From Salinigranum marinum (GTDB taxonomy: Archaea > Halobacteriota > Halobacteria > Halobacteriales > Haloferacaceae): a DNA stretch of 64,000 nucleotides. Shown here piece by piece: positions 15,032-20,516 of this stretch (its first letter is position 1; every line of letters begins with the position of its first letter). The notes under the pieces were generated by a model. It did not search any database and was not told where the DNA came from. It saw only the letters and a list, made by a program, of their open reading frames with translations. The translations under genes were made by a program, and so were the position numbers. Location: positions 744,001 to 808,000 of the forward strand of contig NZ_CP100461.1 of the NCBI RefSeq assembly GCF_024228675.1, read 5' to 3'.

Positions 15032-15349
15032 ATGGACTGGCCACACGATCCCGACGGGGAGCAGGGTAGCGAGGGCCGACGCAAGTACGGCCACGCGGTC
15101 GTCGCCAAGAAAGTCGACGAGGACGAGGACTTCCCGCTCTCGCGGGACGCGTTCGTCGCCGAGTACGGCGACGACCCGATCCGGATCGACTCCGAGCGAG
15201 TCGTCTCGCTCCGCGAGGTGTTCGAGGGGGTCGACGAGGAGGAGTTCGCCGATTTCGTGGAGTTTCACCAGGCGCTCGGACGGGCGATGCGGGAGAACGA
15301 CCTCTGGTTCTACGAGGGTGCCGACGCGTTCGTCCGCGACCGCGCCTAG
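15032..15349 (+). CDS. DUF5785-type conserved haloarchaeal protein
   Basis: Encodes 105 residues, highly acidic. It begins MDWPHDPDGEQGSEGRRKYG and continues with DFPLSRDAFVAEYGDDPIRI, then a DEEEFADFVEFHQALGRAM helix. This pattern matches the haloarchaeal DUF5785 proteins as I recall them; no function is known. The stop shares a CTAG palindrome with the stop of uridine kinase on the opposite strand (15346-15349). Confidence 0.75.
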   Translation: MDWPHDPDGEQGSEGRRKYGHAVVAKKVDEDEDFPLSRDAFVAEYGDDPIRIDSERVVSLREVFEGVDEEEFADFVEFHQALGRAMRENDLWFYEGADAFVRDRA

Positions 15350-16029
15350 GCGTCGTCGAATTCGGCGTCGAGTTCGACCTCGACCGAGTCCCGTTCCCAC
15401 GTCCGGGCTGCGTCGCCGGTCACTTCGGCGCGAACCTTCTCCTCGAGGAGTTTCACGGCGACGCTGTTCGCCCCCTCGGGGATAATGAGGTCCGCGTTCC
15501 GCTTCGTGGGCTCGATGAACTGTTCGTGCATCGGCTTCACCGTCGAGAGGTACTGCTCGATGACGCCTTCGAGGTCGCGCCCACGCTCGATGACGTCGCG
15601 CTGAATCCGCCGGAGGATCCGGACGTCGGCGTCGGTCTCGACGTACAGGCGGAGATCCATCATCTCGTTGATCGCCTCGTCGTACAGCGCGAGGATCCCT
15701 TCGAGGATGACGACGTCGGTCGGATCGACCCGTTTTCGCTCGGCTTTGCGGTTGTGCCTCGTGAAGTCGTACTGGGGCATCTCGACCGGTTGCCCCTCGA
15801 GGAGGCTGCTCATCTGCGTCTGGAGCAGGTCCCACTCGAACGCCGACGGATGGTCGTAGTTCCGACTCTTCCGCGCTTCGAAGTCGAGGTGGCTCAGGTC
15901 GTGATAGTAGTTGTCGATCGGGATCCGCGTGACCGACTCGCCGACGTTCTCCGTGACGAGTCGGGCGACCGTCGTCTTCCCGGCGCCAGTCCCTCCCGCG
16001 ATGCCGATGACGAACGACGGGATACCCAT
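15346..16029 (-). CDS. udk: uridine kinase
   Basis: Encodes 227 residues. The P-loop GGTGAGKT is at residues 12-19, and IPIDNYYHDLSHLDFEARKS carries the catalytic/uridine-binding region of the family. The segment PTDVVILEGILALYDEAI is the Walker B region, and the lid helix with arginines (VRILRRIQRDVIERGRDLE) is intact. It phosphorylates uridine (and cytidine in homologues) in pyrimidine salvage. It converges with the DUF5785 gene, sharing four bases. Confidence 0.92.
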   Translation of the reverse strand: MGIPSFVIGIAGGTGAGKTTVARLVTENVGESVTRIPIDNYYHDLSHLDFEARKSRNYDHPSAFEWDLLQTQMSSLLEGQPVEMPQYDFTRHNRKAERKRVDPTDVVILEGILALYDEAINEMMDLRLYVETDADVRILRRIQRDVIERGRDLEGVIEQYLSTVKPMHEQFIEPTKRNADLIIPEGANSVAVKLLEEKVRAEVTGDAARTWERDSVEVELDAEFDDA

Positions 16030-16204: not shown

Positions 16205-16236
16205 TTTCGTTCACGAAACATGTGAGTTTCGTTCAC
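16205..16236 (+). promoter_or_regulatory. operator-like direct repeat upstream of the binding-protein gene
   Basis: TTTCGTTCAC occurs at 16205-16214 and again at 16227-16236, 22 bases apart, about two helical turns. The first copy extends to the palindrome TTCGTTCACGAA. The pair ends eight bases before the TATA box. The placement fits a regulator that occludes or recruits TFB/TBP. The regulator is not identified. Confidence 0.5.
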
Positions 16237-16243
16237 AAAGGTA

Positions 16244-16251
16244 GATTTATA
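16244..16251 (+). promoter_or_regulatory. TATA box of the binding-protein gene
   Basis: GATTTATA lies 25-32 bases upstream of the ATG at 16276, predicting a leaderless or nearly leaderless transcript. It is the strongest TATA match in the surrounding gap. Confidence 0.6.
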
Positions 16252-16275: not shown

Positions 16276-17670
16276 ATGGTACGTGATATCGACCGACGTA
16301 AGTTCCTGAAGGGAGCCGGTGTCGCCGGTGTCGCCGGACTCGCCGGCTGCATCGGTGGTGGCGACGGCGGGTCGGGTGGGGGCTCGGAGGCGACCGAGAC
16401 GGAATCGAGTGACGGCTCCGAGACGGAATCCGGTGGGAGCACCGGTGGCGGCGGGATGAGCGGCCCAGACGGGCTCGTCGTCATCGGATACCCCGAGTCG
16501 GGGATTCAGCTGTTCCGTGACTACTACAGCCAGACCGACGGGAGCCAGTCGATCCTGATCCCCGACGGGCTCCGCGACGGCGCACTGCCCGCACAGGTCG
16601 GCAACCCGATGGAGAACGTCACGGGGACGGCGCCGGCGGCTGGCGGGCCGAACCAGGACGCGTTCAACGAACTCTTCCAGGAGGAGTACGGCTCCGCGCC
16701 CGGCGTCTTCACCTCCCAGTCGTTCGACTCCGCGGCCATCGGTATCCTCGCCAACGCTGCCGCCGGCGAGAACAGCGGGCCGGCGGTCAAGGACCAGATG
16801 CGTCGCATCGCCAACCCGGGCGGGATGGAGGTCGGTCCCCAGAACCTCGTCGAGGGCGTCGAGGCCGCCGCCAACGGCGAGGACGTCAACTACCAGGGGG
16901 CGTCTTCGGCGACCAACTTCGACCAGAACGGCGACCCCGCGTCCGCGGCGTACGACATCTGGGAGTTCGACGGCGTCGACTCGCAGTCGACGACGGCCGT
17001 CGAGACGCAGTCGTTCTCCGGCGAGAACCCCGACGGAGCCGGTCCGTCCGCCGACAGTGGCCCCGGCGGAAGCGACCGTGAGATCTCGCTCGGGATCCTC
17101 CTCCCGGAGACGGGCGACCTCGCCTCGACCGGCCAGCCGATGATCCAGGCGGCGCAGATCCCCGGCATTCTGGTCAACGAGGCCAACCCCGCCGGGCTCT
17201 CGGTGAACGCACAGATCGAGGACACTCAGACCTCGCCCAGCGCCGGCGTCGCCGCCGGTCAGTCGCTGGCGAGCGCGGGTGTGCCGTTCATCTGCGGCAC
17301 CGCCTCCTCGGGCGTGAACGTCCCGATGTCTCAGCAGGTGGCGATCCCCAACGAGATCGTCGGCTGCTCGCCGTCGTCGACGGCGCTGTCGGTGACGAAC
17401 CTCGAAGACAACGACTTCATCTTCCGGACGGCACCGTCCGACCAGCTCCAGGGCCGCGTCATGGCGCAGGTCATGTCCGAGCGGCTCGGTGCCTCTACGG
17501 TGTCGACGCTGTACGTCAACAACGACTACGGCCAGCAGCTCTCCGAGCGGTTCACCAGCGTCTTCGAGGACAGTTTCGACGGCGAAGTCATGACGCAGGT
17601 GGCGTTCAACATCGGCGAGTCGTCGTACTCGTCGGTCATCGAGTCGGCGCTCTCGGGCGGCAGCAACTGA
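16276..17670 (+). CDS. branched-chain-type ABC substrate-binding lipoprotein, circularly permuted
   Basis: Encodes 464 residues. Residues 1-25 are a Tat lipoprotein signal: twin arginine in DIDRRKFLKG and lipobox LAGC with Cys25. An acidic Ser/Gly/Thr linker follows to about 63. Residues 64-233 (from PDGLVVIGYPESGIQLFRDY to AAYDIWEFDG) match the C-terminal half of the Peripla_BP_6 fold. A second linker covers about 234-266. Residues 267-464 (REISLGILLPETGDLASTG to YSSVIESALSGG) match the N-terminal half. The order is thus reversed: a circular permutation. No permease or ATPase gene is adjacent. The single open frame, signal and promoter argue for expression. Confidence 0.9.
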   Translation: MVRDIDRRKFLKGAGVAGVAGLAGCIGGGDGGSGGGSEATETESSDGSETESGGSTGGGGMSGPDGLVVIGYPESGIQLFRDYYSQTDGSQSILIPDGLRDGALPAQVGNPMENVTGTAPAAGGPNQDAFNELFQEEYGSAPGVFTSQSFDSAAIGILANAAAGENSGPAVKDQMRRIANPGGMEVGPQNLVEGVEAAANGEDVNYQGASSATNFDQNGDPASAAYDIWEFDGVDSQSTTAVETQSFSGENPDGAGPSADSGPGGSDREISLGILLPETGDLASTGQPMIQAAQIPGILVNEANPAGLSVNAQIEDTQTSPSAGVAAGQSLASAGVPFICGTASSGVNVPMSQQVAIPNEIVGCSPSSTALSVTNLEDNDFIFRTAPSDQLQGRVMAQVMSERLGASTVSTLYVNNDYGQQLSERFTSVFEDSFDGEVMTQVAFNIGESSYSSVIESALSGGSN

Positions 17671-17777
17671 GCCGTCGACGCAACGACTCGACGTCAGGCC
17701 CTCTACCTTCCCGTATTTTCCCCACCACCGGCGGGTCCGGCTGTCTCACTCGGGCTGTTCGTCCTTCCCGGCGACGA

Positions 17778-18848
17778 CTACTGCAGGCGGTACCGCAGCA
17801 GCGCTGCGATGCCGCCGAGGTTCTTCAGCTGCTGGCCGGGGGCGAACTCCGCGGAGAACACGGTTACCTCGCCGCCTTTCTGTTCCGTCGTCTCGATCAC
17901 CTCGTTCGCGTCGACGTCCCACTCGCCCGCCCCCTGGCGCTCGTCTCTCAGCCTCGAATCGAGGACGAGCAGGTGCTCGACGGCACCGAACTCGGCGGCT
18001 TCGGCGACCTCCTCGACGCCGTAGGCGACTTTCGTCCCCGCTGCGATGCCGTCCATGAGTTCGTCGATGAGCCGCGACTCCTCGGCGATGCGGGTCTCCT
18101 TCTGGACGTCGTCGATCGCGCCGCGCTTGAGCACCTCGTGGACGCCGCGGTCGCCGACGCCGGCGGTATCGACCGTCTTCACGATCTTTTCCGCCGCGTC
18201 GAGGAACTCGCTTGCGATGTAATCACGAGCGTCGTTCTTCGTAAAGCCCGGCCCCGCGAGGACGACGGCGTCGACGTCGAGGTGCGACAGCGCCGACCCG
18301 ACCTCGTCGAAGAGTTCCGTCCGCGGGCGGGCGTACTCGCCTTTCCCCGTGGGCCTGGTGAAGGAGGCGTACTCCTCGGTGCCGTACTGGGCGACGGTGT
18401 GGATGTACGCCTCGCCCTCTTCGACGGTGACGATGGCGACGTCGGGGTTCTCGCTCGCCTGTTCGGCCTCCTCCAGCCGATCGGTCTGGTCCGGCTTCCA
18501 GTGTTTCTCGACCGTGATCTCCGACCGTTCCTCGACGTTCAGCGTGTGGTGGTGGCCGAGCTGGTCCTCGCGGGAGCAGCCGACGATCTCGCCGCCCACG
18601 CGGAGCCGGTTGGCGAAGCGGGCGAACTCGACGTCCTCGACCGAAAGCGTGAGGTGGAGGTGTTCGCGTTCGCCACCCGTATCGCGGAGGTTCTCCTCGT
18701 TGCGCTGGATGCGCCGGGTGGTGTCACCCTCGACGAGATCGCCCGGTTCGAGCACGTACGAGAGGTGCCAGAGGTCGTCGACGTTCTCGGGAACGAGCGT
18801 CACCCGCTCGCGTCCCTCCTCGCCGCGACCCCGGCTTACGATGCGCAT
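17778..18848 (-). CDS. pelA: mRNA surveillance protein Pelota (aPelota/Dom34)
   Basis: Encodes 356 residues. The N-terminal Sm-like domain contains [20 protein letters not shown], and the central domain includes [19 protein letters not shown]. The C-terminal eRF1-like domain carries [18 protein letters not shown]. Pelota enters the A site of stalled ribosomes and, with an EF1A-like or ABCE1 partner, splits them. The gene begins at ATG 18848 and has no close operon partner; another rescue factor, RqcH, lies 2 kb away. Confidence 0.95.
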
Positions 18849-18902: not shown

Positions 18903-19607
18903 TCAGGGTTCGCTCCACCGCTTCTTCGACAGCCCCGCGGCGAACCCCCGTCCGACGAGGTAGTAGGAGGCGACCTGGACGTAAAAGAGCACGAAGATTC
19001 CGACGACGACGACGGTCAGCACCGAGCCGACGAGTCCGCCGGTGATCCCGACGACGATCGCGAGCAGCCACGCGACGGCGTAGTCGCTCGTGAACGCCCC
19101 CGCGAGGACGGTCCGGACGTCGAACGCCGCACGCAGTCGCCCTTCGATGGCGAAGTTCGCGAGTGCTGCGGGGAGGATGTACGTGACGACGAGCAAGAAC
19201 AGCCCGACGGCGGCGAGGAAGGCGACGAAGACGAGGGGTCCCGGTCCGACGACGGTCGGTGCCGGCGGGGGGCTCCCCGCACCCGCCTCGGCAATCATCG
19301 GATCGCTGGGGATGAACACGAGGATCGCTCCGAGCACGATCGCAAGCGGGACGAGCACGAACAACCCGTACACGAAGTTCACGACGGTCAGCTTCAGCCC
19401 GTCGACGAACAGGGTGCCCCACTGCGTGAACGAGGGGGGCGTGCGCTCCCGACGCGCGGCGTGGTCGAGCACCCGAACGAGGTAGCCCTGGACGACGAAC
19501 GCCGGGAGAACCAACACGCCGAGAAGAGTCAAAACCCCGCCGACGAGGAGCGTCGACAGCCAGTCATCGCCTCGACGGGGAAACGACAGAGCATCGAAGA
19601 GCATCAC
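18903..19607 (-). CDS. DUF4013 multi-pass membrane protein
   Basis: Encodes 234 residues. It begins MMLFDALSFPRRGDDWLSTL and continues with LVGGVLTLLGVLVLPAFVVQ, the N-terminal signature of DUF4013 proteins. About six hydrophobic segments are visible, with a proline/glycine-rich loop near 115-125. A paralogue lies just upstream (19809-20516) and a more divergent one at 37890-38588. The biochemical role of DUF4013 is unknown; it is an integral membrane protein. Confidence 0.85.
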   Translation of the reverse strand: MMLFDALSFPRRGDDWLSTLLVGGVLTLLGVLVLPAFVVQGYLVRVLDHAARRERTPPSFTQWGTLFVDGLKLTVVNFVYGLFVLVPLAIVLGAILVFIPSDPMIAEAGAGSPPPAPTVVGPGPLVFVAFLAAVGLFLLVVTYILPAALANFAIEGRLRAAFDVRTVLAGAFTSDYAVAWLLAIVVGITGGLVGSVLTVVVVGIFVLFYVQVASYYLVGRGFAAGLSKKRWSEP

Positions 19608-19808
19608 CCGGTCGGTGACCGGGCGCGGAGTTAGTTCTTGTGACTATTCTTGCACCACCGCCGCAGTCGCCCGGTTTCGGGACCGAGCGCCCGACTCCGA
19701 ACGTCAGCGCGAGGGTCCTCGAGAGAACACAGAGTCGGCCCGCTGGTGCGGGACGGACATCGATCCGTCGGGAAATCGATCCCGTCGGGATACCGATCGC
19801 CCGGTCGT

Positions 19809-20516
19809 TCAGACGGCCGGCTGTTCGCCGGGCATCTCGTCTTCCTCGTGCAGTTCGACGGGGTTGAGATCCGTCCAGGTGTGGCCGATGACGTAAAACG
19901 CCGCGACGGCGGCGTAGAACGTCACGAAGACGCCGACGATCGTCCCGACGATCGGGACGATGCTCAGCACGGACGTGACGAGCCCCGCGGCGAGGAGCAT
20001 CGCGAACGCGCTCAACCACCCTATCGCGTACGTTCTGGTCGTGATGGCCGCACGGATCTCGCCGAAGGCGAAGCCGGCCATGAGGTCGTCCTTCTCGACG
20101 TAGTTCGCGAGCGCCGCGGGGGCGATGTACGCCGCAACGAGCCCGAGGGCGAACGCCACGAGGAAGCCGACAACGGCGACGAGGCCGCCGATCGCGCCCG
20201 CGACCCCGGAGTCACCGGCGACCGCACCGCCGATGCCGATGAACGCGATGGTCGCCCCGAGCAGGCCCGGGACGAGACCGTACACGAGGTAGATGGCGAA
20301 CGCCTTCAGCCCGTCGACGATCATGGTCCCCCAGTCGTCGAACACCGGCGGTTCGTCGCCCCCGCGCATCGTCCCCCGGAGGACGCGAACGTAGTAGCCG
20401 AACACCGCAAACAGCGGGACGAGGAGGAAGCCGAACAGCGTCAGGACGCCGCCGAGCAGAACCGTCTTTATCCAGTCGTCGCTGCTGCGCAGGTATCTGA
20501 GTGATTCTTCAATCAT
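19809..20516 (-). CDS. DUF4013 multi-pass membrane protein (paralogue)
   Basis: Encodes 235 residues. The N-terminus SSDDWIKTVLLGGVLTLFGF aligns with the neighbouring DUF4013 gene, and RVLRGTMRGGDEPPVFDDWG matches its polar loop. About six hydrophobic segments are followed by a charged tail (HEEDEMPGEQPAV). The two genes are tandem on the minus strand, 201 bases apart, which suggests duplication with separate promoters. Function unknown. Confidence 0.85.
   Translation of the reverse strand: MIEESLRYLRSSDDWIKTVLLGGVLTLFGFLLVPLFAVFGYYVRVLRGTMRGGDEPPVFDDWGTMIVDGLKAFAIYLVYGLVPGLLGATIAFIGIGGAVAGDSGVAGAIGGLVAVVGFLVAFALGLVAAYIAPAALANYVEKDDLMAGFAFGEIRAAITTRTYAIGWLSAFAMLLAAGLVTSVLSIVPIVGTIVGVFVTFYAAVAAFYVIGHTWTDLNPVELHEEDEMPGEQPAV

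Follow-up and report, generated by a model that had tools for sequence, protein, structure and literature searches.

A haloarchaeal Liv-type binding-protein locus as a probable hot spot of circular permutation

One syntenic locus of haloarchaea, which encodes a substrate-binding lipoprotein, is probably a hot spot of circular permutation: a loop in lobe 2 of the protein appears to have been opened independently three times and one of the resulting rings to have been reopened twice, giving three interchangeable topologies. We came upon the locus in Salinigranum marinum, in a stretch of 64,000 nucleotides (contig NZ_CP100461.1, positions 744,001 to 808,000) that is called the window in what follows. 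The window protein is very probably a functional lipid-anchored binding protein of a Liv (branched-chain/hydrophobic amino acid, HAAT-type) ABC importer, with its type I fold circularly permuted. To our knowledge, most natural circular permutations are single events of ancient date. In the present family, orthologues of canonical, permuted and twice-permuted order share a chromosomal slot and a partner operon; this holds even inside a single genus, and there are close relatives on both sides. The locus thus offers an experiment of nature on the mechanism of permutation, on the repeated choice of the same loops and on whether a binding protein is affected by where its membrane tether sits. It also means that annotation and alignment tools based on order mishandle a common haloarchaeal transporter protein.

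An earlier note on the window, made from its letters alone, described an open reading frame at 16276-17670 with a Tat signal, a lipobox and the two halves of a Peripla_BP_6-type fold in reversed order. The start and stop of this 464-aa frame, its Tat motif (R7 R8) and its lipobox (LAGC, Cys25) agree with that description, and the reversal is borne out by aligning the segments separately. The Pfam Peripla_BP_6 profile matches in two stretches (93.2 bits against a cut-off of 31.7), the best of which places residues 269-460 on profile positions 1-188. In a phmmer search of solved structures, residues 270-460 match positions 17-202 and residues 63-188 match positions 204-331 of the same chain, 3td9, the solved structure of T. 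maritima LivK; a profile built from 51 relatives of permuted order gives the same swapped two-part match on 3td9 and on 4gnr. Since the two segments match one 3td9 chain in reversed order, the protein consists of a C-half (63-233) followed by an N-half (from residue 268). As to the low-complexity acidic linkers through which the halves were said to meet, the acidic joint exists, but the 34-residue internal linker is in part the old C-terminal tail (234-249), which forms a strand in the predicted model. The parts of the gene and its surroundings are listed in Table 1.

Table 1. Features of the permuted binding-protein gene and its neighbourhood (window coordinates)
Feature	Position	Strand	Basis
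5′ neighbour udk, a uridine kinase gene (PRK family), shared with some permuted and some canonical loci	15346..16029	-	Pfam PRK; tblastn
Promoter-like element GGTAGATTTATA (TATA/BRE-like), putative function	16240..16251	+	Upstream comparison
CDS, circularly permuted Liv-type (Peripla_BP_6) substrate-binding lipoprotein, 464 aa	16276..17670	+	Translation; Pfam; orthologues in >100 genomes; dN/dS
Tat signal and lipobox LAGC, lipidated Cys25	16276..16350	+	Sequence; Pfam TAT_signal 21.9 bits, slightly below the 22.7 cut-off
Gly/Ser/acidic tether from lipid anchor to fold, residues 26-62	16351..16461	+	Sequence; low pLDDT at 1-39 and 53-60
Ancestral C-terminal half, first in chain, residues 63-233	16462..16974	+	Alignment to 3td9; profile on 3td9, 4gnr
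Ancestral C-terminal tail, residues 234-249	16975..17022	+	By-eye alignment with tails of canonical orthologues; strand 239-248 in model
Acidic joint ENPDGAGPSADSGPGGSD, residues 250-267, from old C to old N terminus	17023..17076	+	Linker comparison; common to CP1 and CP2 proteins
Ancestral N-terminal half, second in chain, residues 268-464	17077..17667	+	Alignment to 3td9; Peripla_BP_6 positions 1-188
Synteny edge: DNA similarity to congeners ends, expected livFGMH operon missing	17659..17673	.	blastn to L170, L273, L274
Pelota (eRF1-like), 3′ neighbour; in G166 and G167 its distance to the binding-protein gene is ~20 kb	17778..18848	-	Pfam; search of relatives

Structure prediction, which the note had proposed as a check, gave a single confident AlphaFold model (mean pLDDT 84, pTM 0.79) with both halves in one fold; regular alpha/beta structure extends over these and over the former C-terminal tail. 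The predicted model is two-lobed with a cleft, and its Foldseek matches are LIVBP-like structures. The N-to-C order of canonical type I (Peripla_BP_6/HAAT) binding proteins is not found in it, and we class the protein as a permuted variant. Foldseek comparison respects chain order: with the window model about half of the LIVBP-type structures is recovered (best matches 183-207 columns, target TM 0.36-0.51), and with the model of a CP2 protein (see below), whose order is mostly canonical, nearly the whole fold (338 columns of 3td9, TM 0.71). The new termini had been expected at the interdomain hinge, and they are not there. By the usual division of LIVBP lobes, LivK residue ~203 falls in the C-lobe, and the new ends therefore lie in a helix/strand loop of lobe 2, rich in Gly and Asp. 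The swapped halves of the window protein are not its two lobes.

The promoter-like element is likewise found upstream of the orthologues in four other genomes (G166, G167, G039, G040). Directly upstream of it in the window (16205-16239) is a near-identical pair of 13-mers, TTTCGTTCACGAA and TTTCGTTCACAAA, with a spacing of 22 bp, which is not evident in the congeners G166 and G167.

For comparison with relatives, loci were collected by homology alone, and the family was cut into blocks N1 (beta1-alpha1), N2 and C and searched with a doubled ‘ring’ sequence as query. Three topologies occur: canonical N1-N2-C; CP1, the window type, C-N1-N2; and CP2, N2-C-N1 (L103-L105, L149-L151). We distinguish five protein classes: canonical, CP1, CP1b (Halorubrum-type), CP1c (a third group, in f3/g34 genomes) and CP2. 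CP1, CP1b and CP1c have the same cut loop and different joints and linkers. The CP2 joint between C and N1 is of the same kind as that of CP1 (e.g. FEGDNPDGAGPSAEETPGSDPGR in L103); canonical proteins stop at the tail before the joint, so CP1 and CP2 have the joining event in common. CP2 appears, from its joint and block order, to be the CP1 ring reopened at another site, after beta1-alpha1.

In the relatives a convergent livF-livG-livM-livH operon lies 3′ of the gene. livF was found at 54 of 59 CP1, all five CP2, 10 of 11 CP1b, all seven CP1c and 29 of 37 canonical loci, and is 3′ and convergent in every one of these 105, with median gaps of 40-343 bp; livG/livM are absent from the stretch examined in 8 of the 37 canonical and 4 of the 59 CP1 loci. 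The same arrangement of gene and livF is seen in canonical outgroups from outside the taxonomic class (L280, L281). Since they occupy the same slot facing livF, permuted and canonical genes are mostly positional orthologues, and the permutation has therefore most likely taken place in situ. Some genomes also have canonical paralogues (L206, L227), which in G166 are close to liv genes of their own. Pelota was dropped as a candidate for a conserved synteny partner, the conserved 3′ neighbours being livFGMH. The binding-protein gene, udk and liv operon all occur at L273 (G167) too, but differently rearranged: the operon there lies beyond up14 and on the same strand.

Circular permutation is by default explained by duplication and partial deletion (PMC3320104). 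Applied here, a tandem duplication in situ followed by partial deletion would have joined the old C and N termini by the acidic linker and opened new termini in the Gly/Asp-rich loop of lobe 2. The note had proposed tandem duplication followed by loss of the outer halves. The duplication is plausible, but since the signal is retained, the first copy's N-half must have disappeared by internal loss and not as an outer half; and among the loci examined we found no tandem-fused intermediate, which the note had suggested looking for, no free complete half and no relic. Apparent readthrough relics in G141 and G393 proved to be spurious extensions of alignments. The missing fused intermediate and downstream relic count in favour of gene fission with refusion in the other order, an alternative that we consider unlikely, though it is the strongest of those weighed here. 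Fission for its part lacks free-standing complete halves in the same loci. Tandem pairs of CP1 genes (L088, L167) indicate that duplication does occur at the locus, and the CP1 joint ends, read by eye, in GG(S)D-R, resembling the end of canonical lipoprotein tethers; both argue for tandem duplication. The lobe-2 and beta1-alpha1/beta2 loops of canonical proteins are often rich in Gly and Asp, like the tethers, and we speculate that such loops and tethers could favour in-frame joining through short repeats.

The two tandem pairs lie at 4809-7613 of L088 (Haladaptatus sp. DYF46) and 6380-9165 of L167 (genome G247), and G381 has another pair of this kind. A lipobox is apparently lacking from one of the two L088 genes.

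For the trees, the cores were rotated into canonical order and stripped of their linkers. When distant canonical outgroups (30-36% identity) were used, the root within CP1 was unstable; closer syntenic outgroups from other taxonomic classes took their place. With these (36-39% identity), CP1 and CP2 group together in a single clade (100/99) and the tree is rooted among canonical genes, several backbone branches being weak. In the in-group tree CP2 is nested twice within CP1; CP1b is nested in a canonical sub-clade (97/97 with L163/L248; 99/93 with L112 and the L239-L247 group) and CP1c in a different one, with lower support (90/77). The trees indicate that CP1 arose once, from a canonical ancestor, that two canonical sub-clades acquired this cut independently (CP1b and CP1c), and that the second cut was made twice within CP1 (CP2). 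In AU tests a single origin was rejected for all permuted forms (p=0.0095), for CP1(+CP2) with CP1b (p=0.0048), for CP1(+CP2) with CP1c (p=0.0094) and for CP2 (p=0.004, and 0.00175 with an earlier tree). These p-values are indicative, because the groups were defined with the trees already in view. CP1b and CP1c as one group were not rejected (p=0.063), so the events may number four. On these trees we count at least four rearrangements, and probably five.

The cut loop common to CP1, CP1b and CP1c would also follow from a single ancient permutation, if some genes had later reverted to the canonical order or if permuted and canonical genes had exchanged sequence by gene conversion. The result for CP1b with CP1c leans the same way, as does the first, distantly rooted tree, in which CP1, CP1b and CP2 as one clade were not rejected (AU p=0.115); rejection came after closer canonical relatives were added. 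We hold this history to be improbable, a little more so than fission. It runs against the AU tests, which reject a placement on one side of a branch for all permuted forms, for CP1(+CP2) with CP1b and for CP1(+CP2) with CP1c; the linkers of the three classes differ, the syntenic outgroup is canonical, and reversion likewise requires repeated rearrangement. By best single match, moreover, both halves of CP1b are clearly closest to canonical relatives; for CP1c the N-half is clearly nearest to canonical proteins and the C-half about equally near to CP1, CP1b and canonical ones.

The precedent for a permuted binding protein is TpMglB-2 (Tp0684), the founding member of the ‘Type Ic / Cluster Bc’ binding proteins and a solved natural circular permutant that retains ligand binding and conformational change (PMC4990184); the new part here is repeated and secondary permutation. 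Both are natural circularly permuted type I binding lipoproteins of ABC importers. TpMglB-2 is of the glucose/galactose type, occurs in spirochaetes and Gram-positives and has the first three N-lobe strands at its C terminus. By its published description (PMC4990184), it differs from the present family, which is archaeal, has Liv/HAAT homology and is cut in lobe 2 (CP1) or after beta1-alpha1 (CP2), and which arose several times and has canonical orthologues in the same slot. Neither the cut site nor the MglB homology of Type Ic / Cluster Bc is found in the window protein. With LivJ/LivK, LIVBP and Peripla_BP_6 proteins (3td9, 4n0q, 4gnr, 2liv) it shares the fold, cleft motifs and partner operon livHMGF; LivJ/LivK and LIVBP differ from it in their canonical order, N then C. 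Saposin/swaposin and the DNA methyltransferases are families permuted by duplication, the methyltransferases being cited for documented intermediates (PMC3320104). They too are natural circular permutations, whereas in the present family every topology is found at a single syntenic locus, a derived ring seems to have been opened anew on two occasions and no intermediate was seen. A literature search, with subscription journals mostly outside its reach, found no report of permuted haloarchaeal or Liv-type binding proteins.

No variation is seen among the five sampled classes at the cleft positions S345, P366, T369, Y418, G419, P73, D97 and G98; position 72 carries either Y or F. By analogy with LIVBP, these positions are probably ligand contacts; the conserved cleft positions are drawn from both swapped halves. 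Amino-acid binding has presumably been retained. An amino-acid-like ligand would be bound in the interlobe cleft by residues from both halves and passed to LivHMGF.

The livHMGF operon, which adjoins the gene in a sister species, is ~130 kb away from it in the window genome. A close livHMGF set lies at ~890.8-894.8 kb of its contig (G000:C1), on the same strand as the binding-protein gene, and is followed by putative nurA and herA genes (named by eye). Its LivM is 94% identical to that of the congener G166, whose set faces the orthologue, and no binding-protein gene was found beside it in the neighbouring sequence examined. The DNA similarity to congeners stops at 17656-17673 in the window (Table 1) and at the livF end in L272. 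We infer that the gene and livHMGF were separated by an inversion of ~130 kb, one of whose ends lies between the two, and that the distant set remains the partner, for a ligand of the Liv class. The note, seeing no adjacent permease, had suggested an orphan sensor or binder. Indeed no transporter gene stands beside the binding-protein gene within the window; yet it is very unlikely that the protein has ceased to serve a transporter here and acts as a sensor or receptor, since the genome carries a livHMGF set so close to that of the congener and with no binding-protein gene next to it, and since the cleft motifs are conserved. Between pelota and an NFACT (RqcH-like) gene in the window there are two adjoining DUF4013 membrane-protein genes (18903-20516), ~42% identical to each other.

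In a family-wide search, full-length matches in the permuted order (47-91% identity) came from over 100 of the 171 family genomes, and canonical-order relatives appear as split matches; a contig scan gave 80 further loci in many genera. dN/dS of the folded part is 0.08-0.21 (window gene against three relatives), and the window gene is under purifying selection; this and the conservation of the order across so many genomes exclude chance. Low-complexity linkers are able to mislead assemblers, but an assembly artefact or a chimeric gene in this genome only, for which no support was found, is refuted by this selection and by the recurrence of the order across genera, and its probability is practically nil. 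Nor do all family members share the order, canonical-order orthologues being present. The permutation, called unusual in the note, is so for binding proteins in general, but the permuted order is the common state of this orthologue in many haloarchaea. A plasmid search gave no match above 60% identity, and the best haloarchaeal matches listed consist of two separate pieces. Permuted copies at three loci (L094, L114, L226) are apparently frameshifted or truncated, suggesting occasional decay of the gene. A canonical orthologue at L163 (6406-7680) has no obvious lipobox Cys in its signal region and is possibly secreted or otherwise anchored.
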